Below are positions 35,387 to 62,240 of a DNA stretch of 64,000 bases, in pieces (the stretch's first letter is position 1; the number at the start of each line of letters is the position of its first letter). Location of the stretch: positions 124,001 through 188,000 of the forward strand of contig NZ_FQYX01000005.1 of NCBI RefSeq assembly GCF_900141935.1. Direction: 5' to 3'. Source of the DNA: Arenibacter nanhaiticus. GTDB taxonomy: Bacteria > Bacteroidota > Bacteroidia > Flavobacteriales > Flavobacteriaceae. The position numbers and the translations under genes were made by a program. Below the pieces are notes generated by a model. That model was not told where the DNA came from. It was given only the letters and a program-made list of their open reading frames with translations, and made no database searches.

Positions 35387-36904
35387 ATGAAGAAAAGAAA
35401 AATTGAAATAATGGACACCACCCTTAGAGATGGGGAACAAACCTCTGGGGTGTCCTTTTCAGCGTCCGAAAAACTTACTCTGGCAAAATTATTGTTAGAT
35501 GAATTACAGGTAGATAGGATTGAAGTGGCCTCGGCCAGAGTTTCCGAAGGAGAGCTATCGGCGGTGCAGCAAATTACGAAATGGGCCAATACAAAAGGTT
35601 ATCTAGATCGTGTAGAAGTATTGACCTTTGTCGATGGCGGCGTATCCTTGGAATGGATGGAAAAGGCTGGTGCAAAAGTACAGAACCTTTTAACGAAGGG
35701 TTCTATGAACCACTTGACCCATCAGTTAAAAAAAACACCGGAACAGCATTTTAGGGAGATAGACATGGCTATAACGGCAGCTACTGCCACTGGCATCGCT
35801 ACCAATGTTTATTTAGAGGACTGGAGTAATGGGATGCGAAACTCTAAATCTTATGTTTTCGAATTTCTAGATTTCCTCTCCAAGCAACCTATAAAGAGAG
35901 TCTTGTTACCAGATACCTTGGGAATCCTTACCCATTCGGAAACATTCGATTATATTTCAGAAATTGTACAACGTTATCCAAATCTGCATATAGATTTTCA
36001 TGCCCATAACGATTATGACCTAAGTGTTTCCAATATCATGGAAGCGGTAAAGGCTGGTTGCCACGGGCTTCACCTTACGGTCAACGGAATGGGAGAAAGA
36101 GCGGGAAATGCCCCTATGGCCAGTGCGGTAGCCGTTTTAAACGACTTTTTCACCGATGTAGAAGTAGGAGTCAATGAAACTTCCCTTCATAAGGTCAGTA
36201 AATTGGTTTCGGCATTTACCGGTTTCGGAATTCCGGCGAACAAACCTATTGTAGGCGATAACGTATTTACTCAGACTGCGGGCATACATGCAGATGGGGA
36301 TAGTAAAAAGAATTTGTATTTTAACGATTTAATGCCAGAGCGTTTTGGCAGAATCCGGAAATACGCTCTTGGAAAAACATCCGGAAAAGCCAATATCCAA
36401 AAGAATTTACAGGAATTAGGGCTGACCCTTAATGATGACGAATTAAAAAAGGTAACGGCTAGAATCATTGAACTTGGCGACAAAAAAGAAAAAGTAACCA
36501 AGGAAGATTTACCTTTTATTATTTCTGATGTTTTAGATAGCGACACCTTTCAACAAAAGGTATTTATAAAATCGTACGTACTTACCCATTCTAAAGGACT
36601 AATGCCTTCGTCTACCTTGGCCTTAGAAATCAATGGCGAACTTATTGAGACCCATGCCCAAGGGGATGGTCAGTACGATGCCTTTATGAATGCCCTAAAA
36701 AAAGTATATGCTACCAAGAATCTAGCCTTGCCTACCTTGGTAGATTATGCCGTTAGGATTCCGCCCGGAAGTAATTCTGATGCCCTTTGCGAAACCATTA
36801 TTACCTGGGAGCGCAACGGAAAGGAATTTATTTCGAGGGGATTGGATTCTGACCAAACCGTGTCTGCTATTAAAGCCACGGAAAAAATGCTGAATATTAT
36901 ATAG
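35387..36904 (+). CDS. 2-isopropylmalate synthase-like enzyme (possibly citramalate synthase)
   Basis: 505 residues of the LeuA/CimA family: the DTTLRDGEQTSGVSFS start, metal ligands in DFHAHNDYDLSV, GMGERAGNAPMA, and a C-terminal allosteric domain (about 380-505). In the leu operon it should condense acetyl-CoA with 2-oxoisovalerate. The N-terminal region (IEVASARVSEGELSAVQQI) differs from classical LeuA, and family members from this group have also been assigned to (R)-citramalate synthesis from pyruvate. Operon position favours leucine synthesis, but the complete ilvA nearby means a citramalate route to isoleucine is not required. Confidence 0.8.
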   Translation: MKKRKIEIMDTTLRDGEQTSGVSFSASEKLTLAKLLLDELQVDRIEVASARVSEGELSAVQQITKWANTKGYLDRVEVLTFVDGGVSLEWMEKAGAKVQNLLTKGSMNHLTHQLKKTPEQHFREIDMAITAATATGIATNVYLEDWSNGMRNSKSYVFEFLDFLSKQPIKRVLLPDTLGILTHSETFDYISEIVQRYPNLHIDFHAHNDYDLSVSNIMEAVKAGCHGLHLTVNGMGERAGNAPMASAVAVLNDFFTDVEVGVNETSLHKVSKLVSAFTGFGIPANKPIVGDNVFTQTAGIHADGDSKKNLYFNDLMPERFGRIRKYALGKTSGKANIQKNLQELGLTLNDDELKKVTARIIELGDKKEKVTKEDLPFIISDVLDSDTFQQKVFIKSYVLTHSKGLMPSSTLALEINGELIETHAQGDGQYDAFMNALKKVYATKNLALPTLVDYAVRIPPGSNSDALCETIITWERNGKEFISRGLDSDQTVSAIKATEKMLNII

Positions 36905-44700: not shown

Positions 44701-45954
44701 TTAAATCAAATATTGGAACAAATCTGGCTTATCGTTAATATACTCCCCAAAAAAGTTTTTCTCTTTCATTCGTTGTACAAGTGGCTCCAAATCTTCGGGG
44801 CTTTTTAACTCGATTCCTACGACTGCCGGAGCATTTTCCTTACTCGATTTTTTTGAATACTCAAAATGGGTAATATCGTCATTAGGTCCCAATATTTCTG
44901 CCACAAACTGCTTTAGGGCACCAGGACGTTGCGGGAATCGAACGATGAAGTAATGCTTTAATTTTCCAAATAACAAGGCGCGTTCTTTTATCTCTGCGGT
45001 CCTTGTTATATCGTTATTACTTCCACTGACAATACAAACAACATTTTTTCCTTTGATTTCTTCTTTAAAATCATCCAATACACTTATTGTCAACGCTCCT
45101 GCTGGTTCTACCACTATGGCATCCCTATTGTAGAGGTCCAATATTGTTTGGCACACCTTCCCCTCTGCCACGGTGACCATATCGTGTAAGTACTCCTTAC
45201 AGATAGAAAAGGTATAATCGCCTACTCGTTGCACGGCGGCTCCATCTATAAACTTATCAATTTGATTTAATTTTGTATTGACGCCCTTTTCCATGGAAGT
45301 TTTCATGGATGGTGCTCCTTGAGGTTCCACGCCAATAATTTTTGTATTTGGCGACAAGGTTTTAAACACACCACATAAGCCCGAGGCAAGACCTCCTCCG
45401 CCCACGGCTACGAAAAGGTAATCTATTGGGGTCTTGGCCTGTTCTAATATTTCGAGCCCTACGGTCGCTTGGCCTTCAATTATTTTTGGATCGTCGAAGG
45501 GATGGACAAAGGTTTTTTTATATTCGGCACAAAATTTCATCGCCGCCTTTGAAGAATCGTCAAAAGTATCTCCTTCCAATACAACGGTAACCCAATCTCC
45601 CCCAAACAACTTGGTTTGTTCTACCTTTTGTTTTGGAGTTACGGCAGGCATATATATAGTACCTTGAATACCCAGATGGTTGCATGCAAAGGCAACCCCT
45701 TGGGCGTGGTTTCCGGCACTGGCACAAACAACGCCATTAATTAGCTCTTCTTTGGAAAGGGAACTGATTTTATTAAAGGCTCCTCGTATTTTATAGCTCC
45801 TTACACGATGTAAATCTTCTCTTTTCAGCAGAATATTAGCATCAAATTCTTTGGAATAGCGAATGCTTTGGGTTAATGGGGTAATGTCTGCAACTTGGCG
45901 AATGGTTATTGCTGCCTTACGGACATCTTCTATATTGGGAAAATATGGGGTCAT
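44701..45954 (-). CDS. ilvA: Threonine ammonia-lyase (threonine deaminase), biosynthetic
   Basis: 417 residues. The PLP lysine is in RVRSYKIRGAFNKI, the phosphate-binding loop in VGGGGLASGL, and a single C-terminal ACT-like domain (about 325-417) follows, as in the short IlvA form. It makes 2-oxobutyrate for isoleucine. It lies downstream of ilvC on the same strand but beyond a terminator and a 385-bp gap, so it may have its own promoter or be reached by read-through. Confidence 0.94.
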   Translation of the reverse strand: MTPYFPNIEDVRKAAITIRQVADITPLTQSIRYSKEFDANILLKREDLHRVRSYKIRGAFNKISSLSKEELINGVVCASAGNHAQGVAFACNHLGIQGTIYMPAVTPKQKVEQTKLFGGDWVTVVLEGDTFDDSSKAAMKFCAEYKKTFVHPFDDPKIIEGQATVGLEILEQAKTPIDYLFVAVGGGGLASGLCGVFKTLSPNTKIIGVEPQGAPSMKTSMEKGVNTKLNQIDKFIDGAAVQRVGDYTFSICKEYLHDMVTVAEGKVCQTILDLYNRDAIVVEPAGALTISVLDDFKEEIKGKNVVCIVSGSNNDITRTAEIKERALLFGKLKHYFIVRFPQRPGALKQFVAEILGPNDDITHFEYSKKSSKENAPAVVGIELKSPEDLEPLVQRMKEKNFFGEYINDKPDLFQYLI

Positions 45955-46339: not shown

Positions 46340-47815
46340 TTACACTATCGGCTTCATCGCTGTCATAGATGCGCGAAGTCTTGCTCCGACAACTTCTACC
46401 GGATGCTCTCTCAAGGCTTTATTAACGGCAATAAGCTTAGCGTTATCTACCCCTAAATTATTTGGGTCGGCAAATGGCTTTCCTATAACATCAGTTTCTA
46501 CAGTAGTCATAAAGTCGGCCAATAAAGGCTTACAAGCATGATCAAAAAGGTAACAACCGTATTCTGCAGTATCAGAGATCACTCTGTTCATTTCGAACAA
46601 TTTCTTTCTTGCAATGGTATTGGCAATTAATGGAGTTTCGTGCAAAGATTCGTAATATGCCGACTCTGCAATAATTCCGGATTCCGTCATTGCCTCAAAG
46701 GCCAATTCCACACCTGCTCTTACCATGGCTACCATAAGCACACCATTATCGTAGAATTCCTGTTCAGAAATTTCGTCGTTTCCGGCTGCTGTCTTTTCAA
46801 AGGCCGTTTCTCCAGTGGCGGCTCTCCAGGTCAATAGGTTTTTATCGTCATTTGCCCAGTCTTCCATCATGGTTTTAGAGAAATGTCCTTCCATAATATC
46901 ATCCATATGCTTTTGGAACAAGGGACGCATGATATCTTTTAGTTCTTCTGAAAGTTCAAAAGCCTTAATTTTTGCTGGATTCGACAAACGATCCATCATA
47001 TGGGTAATTCCTCCGTATTTCAATCCTTCGGTAATAGTTTCCCATCCGTACTGGATCAATTTAGAAGCATAGCCTGCATCGATTCCTTTTTCGATCATTT
47101 TATCAAAGCAAAGAATAGATCCTGTTTGTAAAAGTCCACATAAAATGGTTTGTTCCCCCATTAAATCAGATTTTACTTCTGCCACAAAGGAAGACTCTAG
47201 TACCCCTGCCTTATGGCCACCTGTTGCTACTGCATATGCTTTGGCTTCGGCCAAACCTTTTTCTTGAGGATCGTTATCAGGATGTACTGCTATTAGGGTA
47301 GGTACACCAAAACCTCTTTTAAATTCTTCACGTACTTCAGATCCTGGGCATTTAGGCGCCACCATGATGACGGTCAAATCCTCACGGATCTGCATACCTT
47401 CTTCTACGATATTAAAACCATGAGAGTACGACAAGGTCGCTCCTTTTTTCATCAAAGGCATAATTGCAGATACTACTGCTGTATGCTGTTTGTCTGGAGT
47501 AAGGTTTACCACTAGGTCTGCTGATGGCACCAATTCCTCGTACGTACCTACTGTAAATCCGTTTTCCGTTGCATTTAAATAAGATTGTCTTTTCTCTTTA
47601 ATCGCCGCTTCTCTAAGAGTATAAGCAATATCTAATCCAGAATCGCGCATATTCAATCCTTGGTTTAGCCCTTGAGCCCCACAACCAACGATAACGATTT
47701 TTTTACCCTTCAAAGCTGATACACCATCTGAAAATTCAGAAGATTCCATAAACCTACATTTCCCTAATTGGGTCAACTGTTCTCTTAGAGATAGTGTATT
47801 GAAATAATTTGCCAT
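46340..47815 (-). CDS. ilvC: Ketol-acid reductoisomerase, class II
   Basis: 491 residues, the long class II form with a duplicated C-terminal helical domain. The NADPH site is [19 protein letters not shown] near residue 35, with [13 protein letters not shown] and [17 protein letters not shown] carrying metal ligands Asp and Glu. It rearranges and reduces acetolactate or acetohydroxybutyrate. It is 47 bp downstream of ilvN and closes the operon. Confidence 0.97.
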
Positions 47816-47862: not shown

Positions 47863-48387
47863 TTATTGATTAAATTCTTTTATTAATTTCGAAATCTGCA
47901 TTTCTGCTTTGGAGACAGCAATCCTTCCAGAGCGCACAAACTGCATAATTCCAAAAGGCTTTAACTGTTCGTACATTTCCTCGATTTCGCTTCTTCTGCC
48001 CGATTTTGACAATACGAAAAAGTCCCTAGAAACCGTTACGATCTGAGCATTGCTTTCTTTAATAATGTTCTGAATATTTCTTTCGTCGAACAACAAAGAA
48101 GAAGCAATTTTAAAAAGCGCAGATTCCTGATAGATAGTTTCCTCATCGCTATGGCTAAAAGCCTTGATCACTTCAATTTGTTTTTCTATCTGCCCCACAA
48201 TATTATGGACCCATTCTGGAGTGGTATAGACCACTATGGTAAATTTAGAAACGTTTTCTATTTCTGATTTAGAAACATTTAGACTCTCTATATTGATATG
48301 ACGTTTTAAAAATATCCCCGAAATTCTATTCAGCAACCCTACATTGTTTTCCGAGTACACTGAAATCGTAAACCATTTTTTTTCCAT
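47863..48387 (-). CDS. ilvN: Acetolactate synthase small (regulatory) subunit
   Basis: 174 residues from the ATG at 48387 (MEKKWFTISVYSEN); an ATG five codons upstream at 48402 is possible. It has an N-terminal ACT domain (ENNVGLLNRISGIFLKRHINIESLNVS) and a C-terminal ACT-like half. ACT domains bind valine and confer feedback inhibition on IlvB, encoded directly upstream. Confidence 0.95.
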   Translation of the reverse strand: MEKKWFTISVYSENNVGLLNRISGIFLKRHINIESLNVSKSEIENVSKFTIVVYTTPEWVHNIVGQIEKQIEVIKAFSHSDEETIYQESALFKIASSLLFDERNIQNIIKESNAQIVTVSRDFFVLSKSGRRSEIEEMYEQLKPFGIMQFVRSGRIAVSKAEMQISKLIKEFNQ

Positions 48388-48438
48388 ATTCCTCTCCGCC
48401 ATTGCTTGCTGCTATGGCTTCTTTAATTATTTTATTAT

Positions 48439-50172
48439 TTATTTCAACCGTACTTCGGAAACTGAAGCGCCTGCAGGGATCATCGGAAAAACGTTGTCTT
48501 CCTTTTCCACGCAAACCTCTAGAAAATAAGCATCTTTGGAAGCTAACATTTCTTGGATAGTTGCTTTTAAGTCCTTTCGTTCACTTATTCTTTTGGACTC
48601 GATATGGTATCCTTCGGCTATTTTTACAAAATCGGGATTGGTCATCACTGTAGAGGCATACCTCTTTTCAAAGAACAATTCTTGCCATTGGCGTACCATT
48701 CCCAAATGCTCGTTATTAAGCACTACGATCTTCACTGGGGTTTTATTTTGGAAAATGGTCCCCAATTCCTGAATGGTCATCTGGTACCCTCCATCGCCTA
48801 TAATGGCTACTACTTCCCTATCCATGGCACCCATTTTAGCGCCTATGGCCGCAGGAAGGGCAAAGCCCATAGTTCCTAGTCCACCAGAAGTAACGTTACT
48901 TTTAGATTGCTTAAACTTGGCATATCGGCAAGCGATCATTTGGTGTTGCCCTACATCCGAAACAATTATAGCATTATGATCGGAAGCAATATTTATTTCT
49001 TCTATCACCTCGGCCATGGTAATTTTCTCCTTGGTAGGATATACGTCGTTTTTTATAACGGCATCGAATTCTATCTTGTATTTTTCTTTAAACTCATTAT
49101 GCCAATCTTGGTGGCTGTTAGCGTTTATCAAAGGCAACAACATAGACAATGTTTGTTTGGCATTCCCCAATACCGCCACATCGGCCTTTACATTTTTATT
49201 GATCTCTGCCGGGTCTATATCAAAGTGAATGATTTTTGCTTGTTTGGCATAAGTATCCAAGCTACCGGTTACCCTATCGTCGAACCTCATCCCGATGGCT
49301 ATCAGCACATCACATTCATTCGTAAGAAGGTTAGGGCCATAATTTCCGTGCATCCCTACCATTCCCACATTTAGTGGGTGACTGGAATCGAGGGCAGAAA
49401 GTCCCAAAATTGTCCAAGCCGCCGGGATTCCCGATTTTTCGACCAATTCTTTTAGTTGTTCTTCTGCTTCCCCCAAGATTACTCCTTGTCCAAAAACAAT
49501 AAGGGGTTTTTGGGCACTGTTGATCAATGCTGCGGCAGTTTCTACGGCCGTAGCATCTGGAGTAGGATATGGCTTGTAACTACGTACGGCTTTACATGGC
49601 TCGTATTCAAAGTCAAATGTATCGATTTGGGCATTTTTGGTAATATCGATTAACACAGGACCTGGTCTTCCTGATCTGGCGATATAAAATGCCTTTGCCA
49701 AAATTTTCGGGATTTCAGCAGCTTCCGTTATTTGGTAGTTCCATTTGGTAACTGGAGTAGAAATGCCAATGATATCTGTTTCCTGAAAAGCATCGGTGCC
49801 CAACAAATGACGTGCTACCTGTCCGGTAATACAAACCATTGGAGTAGAATCTATCTGGGCATCTGCCAAACCGGTCACCAGGTTTGTAGCTCCAGGACCA
49901 GAAGTAGCAACGGCCACCCCTACTTTTCCTGTCACCCTAGCAAACCCTTGAGCGGCATGGGTAGCCCCTTGTTCGTGCCGGGTCAAAATATGGGTTAATT
50001 TATCTTGAAACTTATAGAACTCGTCATACAAAGGCATTATGGCCCCCCCTGGATATCCATAAATTAGGTCTACTCCTTCTGCCAATAAGCAATGGATAAT
50101 AGCCTCAGCACCACTAATTCTGATAGTGTTCTGTTTTGTCGTTTTTGCTTTTTCCTTTTTCAATGTTTCCAT
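48439..50172 (-). CDS. ilvB: Acetolactate synthase large (catalytic) subunit
   Basis: 577 residues, thiamine-diphosphate enzyme: catalytic Glu in HEQGATHAAQGFARV, FAD-region RFDDRVTGSLD and the TPP motif GDGGYQMTIQELGTIFQN. It condenses two pyruvates, or pyruvate with 2-oxobutyrate, the first common step of Val/Leu and Ile synthesis. It lies between ilvD (89 bp gap) and ilvN (36-51 bp gap). Confidence 0.97.
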   Translation of the reverse strand: METLKKEKAKTTKQNTIRISGAEAIIHCLLAEGVDLIYGYPGGAIMPLYDEFYKFQDKLTHILTRHEQGATHAAQGFARVTGKVGVAVATSGPGATNLVTGLADAQIDSTPMVCITGQVARHLLGTDAFQETDIIGISTPVTKWNYQITEAAEIPKILAKAFYIARSGRPGPVLIDITKNAQIDTFDFEYEPCKAVRSYKPYPTPDATAVETAAALINSAQKPLIVFGQGVILGEAEEQLKELVEKSGIPAAWTILGLSALDSSHPLNVGMVGMHGNYGPNLLTNECDVLIAIGMRFDDRVTGSLDTYAKQAKIIHFDIDPAEINKNVKADVAVLGNAKQTLSMLLPLINANSHQDWHNEFKEKYKIEFDAVIKNDVYPTKEKITMAEVIEEINIASDHNAIIVSDVGQHQMIACRYAKFKQSKSNVTSGGLGTMGFALPAAIGAKMGAMDREVVAIIGDGGYQMTIQELGTIFQNKTPVKIVVLNNEHLGMVRQWQELFFEKRYASTVMTNPDFVKIAEGYHIESKRISERKDLKATIQEMLASKDAYFLEVCVEKEDNVFPMIPAGASVSEVRLK

Positions 50173-50261: not shown

Positions 50262-51938
50262 CTAAAACTCATCGGTCACACAACCTACGGAAGCCGAAGA
50301 AACCGTATTGGCATATTTGTACAAACTTCCTTTGCCAACCTTTAATGCTGGTTGTACCCAATTAGCTCTGCGTGTTTCGATCTCTTCATCGGTCAGGTTC
50401 ACGGAAATAGTATTCTTTTCGGCATCGATGGTAATAATATCGCCATCTTGGACCAATGCAATCGTACCACCGTCTTGTGCTTCTGGACTCACATGGCCTA
50501 CTACAAATCCGTGCGTACCACCAGAGAAACGACCATCGGTTATCAAGGCTACGTCTTTTCCAAGACCTGCCCCCATAATAGCTGCTGTAGGCTTCAACAT
50601 TTCCGGCATTCCAGGACCACCTTTAGGACCTTCATAGCGAATCACCACTACATCTCCTTTTTTCACCAATCCTTTTCCGATTCCGGCATTTGCCTTAAAC
50701 TCATCATCGAATACCTTTGCTGGTCCGCTAAAATGCAAACCTTCTTTTCCGGTAATTTTGGCTACCGATCCTTGTTGCGCCAAGTTGCCATATAATATAC
50801 GAAGGTGACCCGATTCTTTAATTGGGGCATTCAATGGCTTAATTACATCTTGTCCTTCGCTTAAGCTAGGCACCTCTGCTAAATTTTCTGCCATTGTTTT
50901 TCCGGTAACAGTTAAACAATCGCCATGCAGCATACCGTTTTCCAACATAAACTTCAATACTGCCGGCGTACCACCTACTCTATGAACATCTTCCATCAGG
51001 TACTTACCACTAGGCTTTAAATCGGCCAAGAAAGGGGTCGTATCGCTAATTCTTTGAAAATCGTCCAAGGTAAATTCTATATCGGCAGCTTTTGCTATGG
51101 CCAAAAAGTGTAATACTGCATTGGTAGACCCTCCCATTACGGTAATTAAACGCACGGCATTTTCCAAGGATTTTCTGGTAATGATATCGCTAGGCTTGAT
51201 ATCGTTCTCCATAAGATATTTTAAGGCCTTCCCTGCATTGATAGAGTCCATTTTCTTTTCTTTTCCGATCGCCGGATTGGAAGAGTTGTATGGCAAGGCC
51301 ATCCCCAAAGCTTCAATGGCAGATGCCATTGTATTAGCGGTATACATTCCGCCACATGCACCAGCTCCTGGGCAGGCATTCTGTATCACTCCTTTAAAGT
51401 CCGCTTCGTTCATAGTACCGGCAACTTTTTCTCCCCATGCTTCAAAAGCAGAAACAATATCTAATTTTTTGTCTTTAAAACAACCAGAAGCTATTGTTCC
51501 TCCATATACCAAAACAGATGGTCTGTTTAAACGGATCATTCCCATCAGGGCTCCAGGCATATTTTTATCACAGCCTACCACGGTAACCAGGGCGTCGTAA
51601 TTCATGGCCTGTACTACCGTTTCCATAGAATCTGCAATAATATCCCTAGATGGCAAGGAATAACGCATCCCGTAAGTCCCCATAGAAATCCCATCACTAA
51701 CACCAATTGTATTAAATACCAAGCCTACCAATCCACTTTCATTGGTACCTTCTTTTACAAACTGGGCCAAGTCATTTAAATGCATATTACAAGGGTTTCC
51801 CTCATACCCTGTACTTCCTATCCCTACTAAAGGTTTTTTCAAATCTTCTTCGGTCAGACCAATGGCGTGCAACATCGCTTGAGCAGCAGGTTGTGTTGGG
51901 TCTTGTGTTACGTTTTTGCTATACTTATTCAATTCCAT
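50262..51938 (-). CDS. ilvD: Dihydroxy-acid dehydratase
   Basis: 558 residues. The iron-sulfur cysteines are in [12 protein letters not shown] and [16 protein letters not shown], with [19 protein letters not shown] near the C-terminus. It dehydrates dihydroxy acids to 2-oxo acids. First gene of ilvD-B-N-C, preceded by about 340 bp of leader beyond the attenuator terminator at 52275-52311. Confidence 0.97.
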
Positions 51939-52274
51939 TAATATGTGTTCTTTCTATGTTTATTTGTAAAAAACTCTATATAACTATCAAAGATAAATGT
52001 TTATATACCCTTAATTTTTTAACTCTAACTATTGGTTTAAACTCAATATCTAAAAAATAAATCTAATATACTGATTTCTAACTTATTACACCCTTAAATC
52101 ATATCATATTCAGTAATTTTTTATTCTTTAATCCCGTCAATGTTTTTAACTTTATACTGACAATTCTACAAACAAAGAGTATAAAAGCCACTAAAAACTC
52201 ATCTACAGATATCTAATTCATTAAGCCTTCTTATTTTGGCCATAGTTTTTGATTCTGACATCAAAAAACAAAAA
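51939..52274. other. ilv operon leader between attenuator and ilvD
   Basis: 336 bp of AT-rich sequence without an ORF. In the transcript it would form the rest of the ilvD 5' untranslated region after read-through. Confidence 0.45.
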
Positions 52275-52311
52275 AAAAGCCTGTATCAAAGTTTATCTGA
52301 TACAGGCTTTT
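52275..52311 (-). terminator. Attenuator terminator of the ilv operon
   Basis: On the minus strand, the perfect 14-bp stem AAAAGCCTGTATCA / TGATACAGGCTTTT with a 9-nt loop is followed by further T residues, a strong intrinsic terminator. It lies 20 nt after the stop codon of an Ile/Val-rich leader peptide and 337 bp before ilvD. Its 5' arm (GTATCA) can alternatively pair with TGATAC at the leader stop codon (52328-52333), which would act as antiterminator. It may also stop transcripts from the pxp operon. Confidence 0.8.
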
Positions 52312-52330
52312 AAATTAATAACGATCCGTA

Positions 52331-52387
52331 TCACCCCATTTCCGGGATAATAATGACTACATTAATAATGTTGTTATTGATTTGCAT
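52331..52387 (-). CDS. ilv leader peptide, Ile/Val-rich
   Basis: An 18-residue ORF on the minus strand, MQINNNIINVVIIIPEMG, with six Ile and two Val (8 of 18), mostly at residues 7-14, and a TGA stop at 52331-52333. It is followed at once by the antiterminator-like segment and the terminator hairpin. It is read here as the regulatory leader peptide: slow translation at Ile or Val codons would leave TGATACGG free to disrupt the terminator. Too short for standard gene prediction. Confidence 0.78.
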   Translation of the reverse strand: MQINNNIINVVIIIPEMG

Positions 52388-52557
52388 AAGGCAATATTAT
52401 AAAAATTCGAATCAGCATCAAAGAAAAACTTTAAAAAACTTATTTTTCTTTTAATGAAGGGGCCAAAAGCCAATTGGTTTCGTGAATCTTTGGTTCATTC
52501 GTCTTCTTTTTACGGCCATGGTTCATGGTCACCTCAACGAAACTTTATAACAGGGAT

Positions 52558-53400
52558 TTAAATTAACTTAAAGGTAAAATGATCTCCCGATTTCTTTTGG
52601 GACAGTACAGCAATAGCCTCGTCGGACAATTGTAAAATCCTAGGATACCCTCCGGTGGTCTGTCCATCTTTCATCAAAATGATCAATTTTCCGGCTGGTG
52701 TCAACTGTACCGTTCCCGGTAGTGTTGCCGAGGTAAGCATAGATACCTGATATCCCTCTATTGTTTCGTTAACCTGGTAGGCCATTCGATTATTTTCTTT
52801 GGCCACGGAAAACTCCGTATAAAAAAGCTGCTCTAACTGATTTGGATGTAACTGTTGAAACTCGGGTCCCTTATACACTTTTAGAACCTTGGCTTCTATA
52901 ATACTGGCATCAACCTTTAATTCTGTGATCTTAGGTTTAAAATCTTTACAAATCCCATAGGGTAAGCTGGTATGGTCCTTTACTGAATTATGTTGCGTCA
53001 CGGGTTTGTAAAAAGACCTACTTCCGAGAATCGGTTCGGTAGTAAAACCGCCTTTTACCCCTAAATAGTTTCTTATCCCATTTTCTAATTTCCCATAGGA
53101 CAGCACATCTCCTTTTTTAATTTGATACACCCTATAATTACGAATGGGCAGATCGTTTAAAAAAACCGCCATTTCGGCACCGCCAAGGGCAATAAATGTA
53201 GGTTCCTCAAAACTGAGCACTGGGCCGGTCATGGTAATTTCCAATACTGCATCGTTATCATCGTTCTCTAACAAGGCGTTTATTTTAGATACCGCCATGG
53301 TATCCATCACCCCAGACACGGGCACTCCCATATTTCGAAATAAAAATCTCCCCTGATCTTGCAGGGTGGTAAAAAATCCGGCTTTTATAATATTAAGCAT
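52558..53400 (-). CDS. pxpC: 5-oxoprolinase subunit C (biotin-dependent carboxyltransferase fold)
   Basis: 280 residues of the KipA/PxpC family: GFFTTLQDQGRFLFRNMGVP at the N-terminus and the PAGKLIILMKDGQTTGGYP stretch near the C-terminus. PxpABC hydrolyses 5-oxoproline to glutamate with ATP. Its ATG lies within the end of pxpB (8-bp overlap). Confidence 0.92.
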   Translation of the reverse strand: MLNIIKAGFFTTLQDQGRFLFRNMGVPVSGVMDTMAVSKINALLENDDNDAVLEITMTGPVLSFEEPTFIALGGAEMAVFLNDLPIRNYRVYQIKKGDVLSYGKLENGIRNYLGVKGGFTTEPILGSRSFYKPVTQHNSVKDHTSLPYGICKDFKPKITELKVDASIIEAKVLKVYKGPEFQQLHPNQLEQLFYTEFSVAKENNRMAYQVNETIEGYQVSMLTSATLPGTVQLTPAGKLIILMKDGQTTGGYPRILQLSDEAIAVLSQKKSGDHFTFKLI

Positions 53401-54130
53401 CCCATTTCAATTTTTCCATTTTATAAATCCCCACTTCACTTTCTATTTTATGCAATTGGTATTCTGCCTTTGAAATGGGATAGAACTGTACTTTGTCGCC
53501 TACTTTGAGGAAACAGGGCGTTTTGCTCTTTGCATCGAACATAGACACGGAACAAATCCCAATAATATTCCATCCTCCCGGGGAATCTTGTGGATATATC
53601 CCAGTTTGTTTTCCAGCAATACCTACGGAGCCCTTAAAAACCTTTGCTCTTGGTACTGGTTTTCTTGGTATTTCCAAAGCCTCTGGCAAGCCTCCCAAAT
53701 AAGTAAAACCAGGCAAAAACCCTATGCCGTATACGGTATATATGGCACTGCTGTGCAGTTTTATGATTTCTTGGAAACTGATGCCCAAATGGTCAGATAC
53801 TTCTTGTAGATCGACCCCGTATTCCGCATCATAACACACTGGTAAACGCCAAAGGTATTGTTCCAATAAAACTGGCTCTTTCTTTGCCAAATACCATTCT
53901 TCCAGCTTTGGTTTTAAAACGCCAAAATCTATTTCGGCATCCCTACAGATCAAGGTTAAGGAATTATAGGCCGGGATAAACTCCCATGCTGTTTCCTTCA
54001 GGTGGTATTTTTTTAAATATTGAACAAACTCCAATATCTCGTTCAATATGGCTTCTTCGATCTTTACCGGCCATTCTACTAAGATAGCATGTATTCCGAA
54101 AGGCCGAATCGATATTTTATGGCTGCTCAC
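53393..54130 (-). CDS. pxpB: 5-oxoprolinase subunit B
   Basis: 245 residues of the KipI/PxpB family, with GFLPGFTYLGGLPEALEIPRK and the QTGIYPQDSPGGWNIIG motif typical of the C-terminal cyclophilin-like domain. The start codon is GTG at 54130, overlapping the pxpA stop by one base (TAGTG). Overlaps pxpC by 8 bp, so all three subunits are translationally coupled. Confidence 0.92.
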   Translation of the reverse strand: MSSHKISIRPFGIHAILVEWPVKIEEAILNEILEFVQYLKKYHLKETAWEFIPAYNSLTLICRDAEIDFGVLKPKLEEWYLAKKEPVLLEQYLWRLPVCYDAEYGVDLQEVSDHLGISFQEIIKLHSSAIYTVYGIGFLPGFTYLGGLPEALEIPRKPVPRAKVFKGSVGIAGKQTGIYPQDSPGGWNIIGICSVSMFDAKSKTPCFLKVGDKVQFYPISKAEYQLHKIESEVGIYKMEKLKWDA

Positions 54131-54867
54131 TATTTTATATATATTAGGTTCTTTGGTAATTCTACCGAAAGATAGGTTAATATTTCACTTACCCGTACAC
54201 TATCGCCATGAATACAAAAAGTCTCGGCAATTATTGCTCTTTTATCGCCATTTAAGGTAGTTACCACTTGTTCTTTCACCATGGCTACCAGATGTCTAAG
54301 CACATCCTTGGGGTCATTGATCACAGCTTGAGGATGTTGCCTAGAGACCAGGGTTAGATCGCTATTGTAATTTCGATCGGCAAAGGCCTCATACTTTATG
54401 TTAAATTCCTGCTCCAAGGCTTCTTTGGCAATCACCGAGTTATAGGGTACATAAAGATATATTCCCTTTCTATAAGGAGCAAGAACCTCTAAAAATATCT
54501 TAGCCAAGGCTTGGTCCTTAGCCAGATCGTTGTACAGGGCCCCATGGGGCTTTATATGGTTTAGGGGAATCTCCTCTTCCTTTAATAGTTGACAAAAAAC
54601 TTCTAATTGGGATCCTATACTTTGTTTTACTTCAGCTGGAGCCATGGTCATAGAAATGCGGCCAAAATGCTCCTTATCGGGATAGGAAGGGTGTGCCCCC
54701 ACTAACACTCCATGTTGTTTAGCCAATAAGGCCACCTTTCTCATGGTTTCTAGATCGCCAGCATGGCCGCCACAAGCAATATTACATGAAGAAATTAATG
54801 GCAATAGAATATCTTCATTCTCCAAGCCTTCCCCCACATCGCAATTGATATCAATCCTATATTCCAT
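54130..54867 (-). CDS. pxpA: 5-oxoprolinase subunit A
   Basis: 245 residues of the LamB/YcsF family: IDINCDVGEGLENEDILLPLISSCNIACGGHAGD at the N-terminus (split here by DVGEG, NIACGGHAGD), VGAHPSYPDKEHFGR and HIKPHGALYN. It is the first gene of pxpABC, which recycles 5-oxoproline arising from glutamine or glutathione breakdown. No transporter gene accompanies the operon. Confidence 0.94.
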   Translation of the reverse strand: MEYRIDINCDVGEGLENEDILLPLISSCNIACGGHAGDLETMRKVALLAKQHGVLVGAHPSYPDKEHFGRISMTMAPAEVKQSIGSQLEVFCQLLKEEEIPLNHIKPHGALYNDLAKDQALAKIFLEVLAPYRKGIYLYVPYNSVIAKEALEQEFNIKYEAFADRNYNSDLTLVSRQHPQAVINDPKDVLRHLVAMVKEQVVTTLNGDKRAIIAETFCIHGDSVRVSEILTYLSVELPKNLIYIK

Positions 54868-61513: not shown

Positions 61514-62151
61514 ATATAGCTATTTTAGGTTTTTAAGGGTCATACTTCGGCTTCGATCAGTACAGGAGATGTATTTCGCATATTGTCATTCGTCTTTACC
61601 ACCAGTGTTCGGTCATGCTTCTTCCATATAAGAAAGATACTATTTTCTTGGGAGATTTTGGTGAGCCTAATTGGAATTTGTGGGGGTTGGTTTTTATTAA
61701 TGTACCAATTAGTTAATGTAACAATGGATTAATTGGGGAATTGTCTTAGTTGAGGGGCATTTGGGTTTTTAATGATCTGCATGGGATTGTAGACACATGG
61801 GAATTTTTTCTCGTCACTCCCAGGAGTCCTCATTTTAGGACGATGAAGGGGTCTCACCAACATGGTTCTTTCATCTTTTAAGGACAGTTTTCTTACTCTT
61901 TCCGGTACGAGCGTGACGCTTGCGCTAGCGGGGGTTCATGTGGAAATGTACCAATTAAATAATCTAGCAATTGGTTAATGTACCTATTGGAAAAGTTTCG
62001 TTTGAAAATTGGTTTTTGATACCTTGAGGATTTTGGGATTCCATTCGCGACAATCATAGCCCCGGAGGGGCCTCATATTAATAATGATGGTATTATTTGT
62101 ATTCATAGGTATCGTGGATTCGGTCCTATCTTTTTCATTGATCATTGTATT
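61514..62151. repeat. Intergenic region rich in dispersed repeat fragments
   Basis: No gene. Contains TGTACCAATTAGTTAATGTA-type blocks (61701-61726, and near 61946-61990) shared with the 56942-57245 region, and GGTACGAGCGTGACGCTTGC (61904-61923), 17 of 20 identical to 57483-57502. Confidence 0.6.
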
Positions 62152-62240
62152 CGCGTTAGGGATTGCAGCGGCATCCTTTTTTAGGGGCATCGCCCCTAAA
62201 AAAGATACAGCGGAAAGCCCGGCCCGATAGGGGAACGCCC
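62152..62240 (+). repeat. Dispersed intergenic element, copy C
   Basis: Begins CGCGTTAGGGATTGCAGCGG and ends GGGGAACGCCC, aligning with copies A and B at both ends but with a divergent centre. The centre holds a perfect hairpin TTTTTTAGGGGC (62177-62188) / GCCCCTAAAAAA (62192-62203) with a 3-nt loop, which could serve as a terminator for the Usp gene that ends at 62275. Confidence 0.75.

Follow-up and report, generated by a model that had tools for sequence, protein, structure and literature searches.

What controls the branched-chain amino acid operon encoded here, in which ilvD is preceded by a short reading frame rich in isoleucine and valine codons and by an intrinsic terminator? The window, by which we mean the whole 64-kb stretch of DNA that was analyzed, carries the following genes of the operon.

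50262-51938, minus strand: ilvD, dihydroxy-acid dehydratase (NCBIfam TIGR00110 and NF002068, over cut-off)
48439-50172, minus strand: ilvB, acetolactate synthase large subunit (TIGR00118, over cut-off)
47863-48402, minus strand: ilvN, acetolactate synthase small subunit (TIGR00119, over cut-off)
46340-47815, minus strand: ilvC, ketol-acid reductoisomerase (NF003557 and TIGR00465, over cut-off)
44701-45954, minus strand: ilvA, threonine ammonia-lyase (NF006390 and TIGR02079, over cut-off)

An earlier note on this DNA had placed ilvD-B-N-C downstream of the terminator; all four genes were recognized by NCBIfam, and ilvA follows in addition. Directly upstream, positions 52558-54867 of the minus strand hold the 5-oxoprolinase-type genes pxpC, pxpB and pxpA, of which pxpC scored below its family cut-offs. 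Elsewhere in the window, a CimA-like citramalate or isopropylmalate synthase (35399-36895, plus strand; NF042433, 657.8 bits against a cut-off of 950) possibly provides an alternative route to isoleucine precursors, and positions 62145-62228 of the plus strand match the Flavo-1 RNA (RF01705, 59 bits), which is widespread in Flavobacteriaceae and has no known function.

The region between the pxp genes and ilvD contains the leader and the RNA segments listed here.

52331-52387, minus strand: leader ORF MQINNNIINVVIIIPEMG plus stop codon TGA (read directly)
52344-52352, minus strand: segment 1, UAUUAUCCC, the last Ile codons and 5′ arm of the protector hairpin 1:2 (minimum-energy fold and covariation)
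52326-52337, minus strand: segment 2, GGGGUGAUACGG, overlapping the stop codon, partner of segment 1 or 3 (covariation and masked folding)
52298-52305, minus strand: segment 3, CUGUAUCA, partner of segment 2 (antiterminator) or segment 4 (terminator) (conserved pairing with segment 2)
52275-52311, minus strand: intrinsic terminator hairpin, segments 3:4, with a U-rich tract on to 52263 (-20.8 kcal/mol, z -8.9)

Direct reading bore out the 18-codon frame, with six Ile and two Val codons, its ATG at 52387 and its stop codon at 52333-52331 of the minus strand. The perfect 14-bp terminator described previously is indeed a run of 14 continuous Watson-Crick pairs, which a G-U and an A-U pair extend to a stem of 16 bp before the U tract; its spacing from the stop codon is 19 nt and not 20 nt, and it lies 336 bases from ilvD. 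The 113-nt leader folded with -38.3 kcal/mol (z = -6.7), and none of 200 shuffles was as good. Pairing of the stop-codon segment with the 5′ arm of the terminator also held, since TGATACGG (52333-52326), which overlaps the leader stop codon, is complementary to CTGTATCA (52305-52298) over 8 bp with one G-U pair. A bulged version of this antiterminator was dropped in favor of the continuous helix. What the first reading missed is that the segment holding TGATACGG also pairs upstream with the Ile codons: in the minimum-energy fold, UAUUAUCCC (52352-52344) is joined to GGGGUGAUA (52337-52329), which gives a helix 1:2.

Is this arrangement conserved? We searched for ATG-initiated frames of 8-45 codons that are followed by a terminator and rated each for a Bacteroidota promoter; in each region the detector picked the ATG with the best sum of Ile/Leu/Val fraction and promoter score, a choice that favors good promoter scores. 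An ilvD leader had to contain at least 33% Ile, Leu and Val before the terminator. Both strands of the 64-kb window yielded 53 combinations of a short frame and a terminator, among which the ilv leader was the sole one with a promoter score of at least 6. Before counting, four duplicate regions were excluded, as was L027 throughout, where the match and the contig begin inside ilvD. The Ile/Val/Leu-rich frame anticipated upstream of ilvD in relatives was found, followed by a terminator, in 61 of 113 distinct upstream regions compared with 9 of 565 dinucleotide-shuffled copies, and with a promoter score of at least 5 in 48 of 113 compared with 2 of 565. The detector found no such leader in 52 of the 113 regions (L014 counted as a miss). 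Arenibacter sp. 6A1 was the nearest named relative among the matches listed, with an ilvD that is 99% identical. For 20 of the 21 closer loci (L014, missed by the detector, was omitted), the Ile/Leu/Val fraction was 0.52 in the leader frame, whose openness was a selection criterion; the other two frames had fractions of 0.20 and 0.09 and contained stops in 19 and 13 of the 20 loci. Ile codon use in these leaders was ATT 40, ATC 31 and ATA 27.

A wider sample of the phylum had ilvD matches in 109 genomes, of which 69 upstream regions were covered; one of these regions repeats an earlier one. Leaders were scored in 19 of the 69, several of them weak matches (L229, L238, L267), and by the detector 50 of the 69 were without one. 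Family f35 contributed 12 leaders in 15 loci, with peptides like MLSTVISLVIIRVIGITYRPGKALC; one of the 12, L238, is unlike the others. The Ile/Val leaders of this family (L235-L247) have YRPGK-like tails and a terminator that ends about 25-55 nt 5′ of ilvD, and no good promoter box was found near their leader ATG.

Pairing was evaluated in an alignment (A3) of 34 loci chosen for sharing the helix type of the window, with L014 added by hand. Helix 1:2 was paired in 97.7% of 306 cells, compared with 31.7-61.7% in slid controls, and contained 13 cells changed on both sides, in four pairs; its covariation score was matched by 0 of 500 shuffles and its number of both-sided pairs by 19 of 500. Helix 2:3 was paired in 98.2% of 272 cells, and only 22.8-46.3% in slid controls, with a single both-sided change and a covariation score reached by 14 of 500 shuffles. 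The antiterminator is strongly conserved, and its covariation is weak because the helix is nearly invariant. Helix 3:4 was paired in 97.7% of 475 cells; changes on both sides affected 13 cells and 7 of the 14 pairs, and 0 of 500 shuffles scored as high. The loci are related, and none of these conservation and covariation counts are independent trials. Compensatory changes had been expected in both of the helices first proposed; the terminator shows them, but the antiterminator offers just the one. In L045, segments 2, 3 and 4 change in concert (TGACAT/GTGTCA/TGACAC). In other genera the leader, antiterminator and terminator persist while the helices are built from unrelated sequences, such as GGGAGGGTT/AGCCTTCC in L024 and TGGAAG/CTTCCA in L028, and several Aquimarina, Tenacibaculum and Winogradskyella loci likewise spell them in other letters.

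Across the helix types, the 2:3 duplex beat the shuffle mean in every one of the 61 leaders (median z -1.9, p below 0.05 in 32), and the window's own duplex reached only p 0.09. In 55 of the 61, the leader end folded better than its synonymous recodings did on average (median z -1.1, p below 0.05 in 20), and the window's own test was not significant (p 0.11). The recoding test gives helix 1:2 broader but weaker support. In other helix types, the local fold is in some cases a hairpin that lies within the ORF and does not include segment 2 (L081, L084), so that helix 1:2 is established for the window's helix type only.

Folding was then modeled on the transcript up to the terminator loop, without segment 4, with a ribosome-sized mask placed at each codon. 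With the ribosome stalled at codons 7-14, the predicted antiterminator probability in the window was 0.86-0.98; it was 0.87 at P15, 0.31 at E16 and 0.00 at the stop codon, the last value agreeing with the original proposal that a ribosome there hides TGATACGG; in the model without a ribosome it was 0.21, with 0.59 for helix 1:2. Seven of the eight Ile/Val codons fall inside the codon 7-14 stall range (permutation p 0.008), and the results were barely altered by footprints reaching 9 to 15 nt downstream or by temperatures of 20-37 °C. Averaged over the 61 leaders, the antiterminator probability was 0.74-0.87 with the ribosome 4-9 codons ahead of the stop, falling to 0.02 at the stop itself, and was 0.32 without a ribosome. 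The best Ile/Leu/Val stall exceeded the stop state in all 61 and the ribosome-free state by more than 0.1 in 49; in the other 12, no Ile, Leu or Val stall lifted the antiterminator more than 0.1 above the ribosome-free state. At full-length equilibrium the terminator prevailed (0.96-0.97) even with a stalled ribosome, and therefore the switch would depend on folding during transcription. In known attenuators the decision is held to fall before segment 4 is transcribed.

Overall, the aligned sequences and the folding model make it very probable that the ilvDBNC-ilvA operon is controlled by ribosome-mediated transcription attenuation and that the element has the classical four segments. The proposal of leader-peptide attenuation is thereby well supported: the leader is conserved and precedes its cognate operon, the helices exclude one another and are kept in relatives, and the modeled switch falls at the right codons. 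We provide a putative mechanism. RNA polymerase would start at or within one base of the leader ATG, and a ribosome would load on the leaderless or near-leaderless mRNA. When Ile-tRNA and Val-tRNA are ample, the ribosome would reach the stop codon and cover segment 2, the 3:4 terminator would form and transcription would stop. When Ile or Val is short, a stall at codons 7-14 is predicted to cover segment 1 and free segment 2, which could then capture segment 3 before segment 4 is made, an order that requires co-transcriptional folding, and allow read-through into ilvD. If no ribosome loads, the favored fold would be 1:2, and termination would ensue. The conserved box 3′ of the terminator, described below, may allow expression that is independent of the attenuator.

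The start of the transcript in this mechanism is suggested by a putative promoter, P1, upstream of the leader.

52419-52422, minus strand: TTTG, -33 element of P1 (from the sequence; conserved in the loci)
52392-52399, minus strand: TAATATTG, -7 box of P1, differing from TAnnTTTG at one base

On the minus strand these elements read TTTG-N19-TAATATTG (52422 to 52392), then four bases and the leader ATG. We compared 21 loci with a GCCTGTATC-type terminator, taken from 29 oriented loci; outside this set were L024 and L028, which have other helices, and L016, L019, L021, L022, L026 and L029, where no leader was seen. With a lenient box pattern (TA, two bases, then TTTG, TTTA, ATTG or TTTN), a P1-type box ended 4 or 5 nt 5′ of the leader ATG with TTG at -33 in 21 of 21 loci. 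TTTG-N19-box itself occurred in 20 of 21 loci, the other being L015, which has TTGC (19) or ATTG (20) and another ATG 2 nt after the box. Among the 61 leaders, the box score was at least 5 in 48, with 31 of these boxes at 4-5 nt from the ATG; other ATGs in the same regions had such a score in 159 of 1465 cases, a comparison in which the detector's choice of ATG favors good scores. In Flavobacterium psychrophilum, according to the portion of PMC9723704 that deals with its map of transcription start sites, the -7 box TAnnTTTG occupies positions -12 to -5, leaderless mRNAs make up just 5.5%, and Shine-Dalgarno sequences are absent in Flavobacteria. Because the last base of the P1 box lies 4 nt before the ATG, this box position puts the predicted +1 on the A of the leader ATG. 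The ilv leader mRNA is thus probably leaderless or nearly so, a view derived from box spacing. The layout that the earlier note had called compact is so at the 5′ end, as the predicted transcript has next to no untranslated stretch ahead of the ATG, but it comprises four segments and not two.

A second box lies 3′ of the terminator.

51988-51995, minus strand: TATCTTTG, box of the candidate second promoter P2, a perfect -7 box 57 nt 5′ of ilvD

It was present in 18 of 18 loci compared, at -57 or -58 in 16 of them. Among the 59 of 61 leader-bearing loci with 110 nt or more downstream, a TANNTTTG box at -110 to -25 was found in 34, where mononucleotide shuffles predict 5.0. Two conserved blocks between the terminator and ilvD (52116-52100 and 52046-52033, minus strand) are possible activator sites. 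From these sequence features, P2 may be a second promoter that depends on an activator and lets transcription bypass the attenuator. A transcript start downstream of the terminator had been named at the outset as evidence against attenuation; P2 would limit the attenuator's share and would not abolish attenuation.

Several other explanations were weighed against the four-segment attenuator. The closest is that the attenuator functions while P2, perhaps activator-dependent, gives most of the ilv expression. This is compatible with our preferred reading, and we regard it as unlikely but well worth considering: the perfect, position-conserved -7 box and the two conserved blocks speak for it, but no TTG was found at a spacing of 18-21 in the 34 box-bearing loci or at -33 in the window, and the 25 of 59 loci that lack the box keep leader and terminator. 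The earlier note itself had argued for two competing helices in place of a four-segment layout. In such a layout the antiterminator would oppose the terminator alone and ribosome-free RNA would read through. Both of these helices are real, and the Mycobacterium tuberculosis ilvB1 leader is described, in the relevant part of PMC13236596, with two mutually exclusive structures. However, the conserved helix 1:2 covaries and is the favored fold in the absence of a ribosome, so that the two-helix layout was rejected and we consider it improbable.

It is more doubtful again that the hairpin merely terminates transcription of the upstream pxpABC genes and that the ORF is incidental. Although a pxpC gene precedes the leader on the same strand, both in the window and in 29 of the 61 leader-bearing loci, the stretch examined contained no pxpC in the other 32, and in 12 of those 32 the nearest open frame of at least 100 codons is on the opposite strand. 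Moreover, the promoter box, the leader ORF and the rival pairing are all conserved alongside the hairpin, and this reading, too, was rejected. Finally, a long 5′ region with a terminator before a biosynthetic operon might point to a metabolite-binding riboswitch, a T-box or a protein-bound leader as what controls the terminator. That would be most surprising, since conservation tracks the Ile/Val-rich frame and the three helices, and no Rfam family reached its gathering score in the region.

The four-segment attenuator is not the only amino-acid leader of this genome, which also carries MKNKNTHHHHFHTGDQAR before hisG (L126), MKNRISNTWWWTNLRQTS before trpE (L158) and MTKQYFWIGFYFNFFFQRGMGLF before pheA (L200), each followed by a terminator. 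His-rich leaders occurred in 15 of 17 hisG loci. Of the 16 trpE loci scanned (L150-L165 of 22 loci; L166-L171 were left out), 14 had Trp-rich leaders, and 16 of 17 pheA loci had short ORFs rich in Phe/Tyr, with terminators judged by eye. In masked folding, the his leader switched (0.72-0.74 at four His codons, 0.07 at the stop, 0.50 without a ribosome) and the trp leader did so weakly (0.32-0.50 at Trp codons, 0.13 at the stop, 0.38 without a ribosome); the phe leader of L200 gave no switch, with 0.84 at the stop by a measure that counted any pairing of the terminator arm. A -7 box ends 7 nt before the his ATG and 5 nt before the trp ATG, and no -7 box was recognized at the phe leader of this genome. 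At leuA, none of 22 loci had a leader with a promoter score of at least 5. At thrA, where for 21 of the 22 loci L128-L149 the gene's frame extends beyond the stretch covered and the upstream region lies outside it, a Thr/Ile-rich ORF without a clear terminator was found in 3 of 31 loci scanned (L211, L215, L216). In these three, the short ORF, for example MIVNNSDILKFYAPIVIGTITTTTIGTTTPLG, stands shortly 5′ of a gene found with the homoserine dehydrogenase family, and at the end of the ORF an ACCCC/GGGGT hairpin may act at the level of translation. We tentatively suggest, at somewhat less than even chances, that attenuators form a family-wide system in flavobacteria, with each leader peptide translated from a leaderless mRNA. 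The promoter box, the ATG, the cognate codons and the switch would be packed together at set distances in the Ile/Val leader, and almost as strictly in the His and Trp leaders, so that the ribosome would load as the 5′ end emerges, without a Shine-Dalgarno sequence and with the polymerase barely off the promoter; for ilv, a second downstream promoter would provide a bypass.

Enteric attenuators of the E. coli type, at ilv, leu, thr, his and trp, consist of segments pairing as 1:2, 2:3 and 3:4, a leader with cognate codons and an intrinsic terminator. The window has in common with them the four segments, the cognate-codon leader peptide, the intrinsic terminator and the cognate operon, whereas its leader is probably leaderless and lacks Rfam sequence membership. 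The highest Rfam leader score at the ilv leader was that of Phe_leader (25.9 bits), followed by Thr_leader (23.3 bits), both below the cut-off of 55; the Leu, His and Trp leader families gave no match at E up to 10 in the region. Unrelated families scored about equally, such as the trpB motif with 25.8 against a cut-off of 59.

The Corynebacterium ilvBNC attenuator (ilvB-II motif), in the sections of PMC10272879 and PMC11857589 that treat it, likewise has a branched-chain-rich leader before ilv genes. For C. glutamicum, a passage of PMC11857589 discusses leaderless initiation and describes hairpin H1 as an anti-antiterminator beside the antiterminator and the terminator, and an entry in the reference list of PMC10272879 names a study on Corynebacterium leader formation without a ribosome binding site. 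That system belongs to another phylum and its operon begins with ilvB and not ilvD, and we liken the two by these partial descriptions, not by sequence. The trpL transcript of Sinorhizobium meliloti begins at the leader ATG, as an excerpt of PMC7298713 states, and so shares the start predicted for the window; it differs in being a Trp leader of an alphaproteobacterium. In Bacteroides, sORFs reminiscent of leader peptides are mentioned in a passage of PMC7366714.

The nearest precedent is F. psychrophilum, for which the pertinent part of PMC9723704 gives strong indications of leader-peptide attenuation upstream of amino-acid operons, with structured 5′ elements before pheA and hisG that are present in other genera. 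It belongs to the same bacterial family and concerns the same class of mechanism as the window; that part of PMC9723704 gives no segments, and ilv has 0 occurrences in its main text. No paper on the window's element was among the matches listed for such attenuators in Bacteroidota, a literature search that left subscription journals mostly uncovered. The ilv element is a well-supported further case of an attenuator of known kind, and leader attenuation in flavobacteria was already suspected (PMC9723704); the probably leaderless leader is its most interesting feature. Given the lack of Shine-Dalgarno sequences reported for Flavobacteria in part of PMC9723704, a leader ORF at the very end of the transcript suits the study of how ribosome loading is coupled to transcription. 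One genome carries Ile/Val, His, Trp and Phe leaders, which offer flavobacterial genetics candidate control elements that respond to amino acids. Compared with the searchable papers, which only suspected such control in Bacteroidota, the window supplies a worked, testable ilv attenuator.
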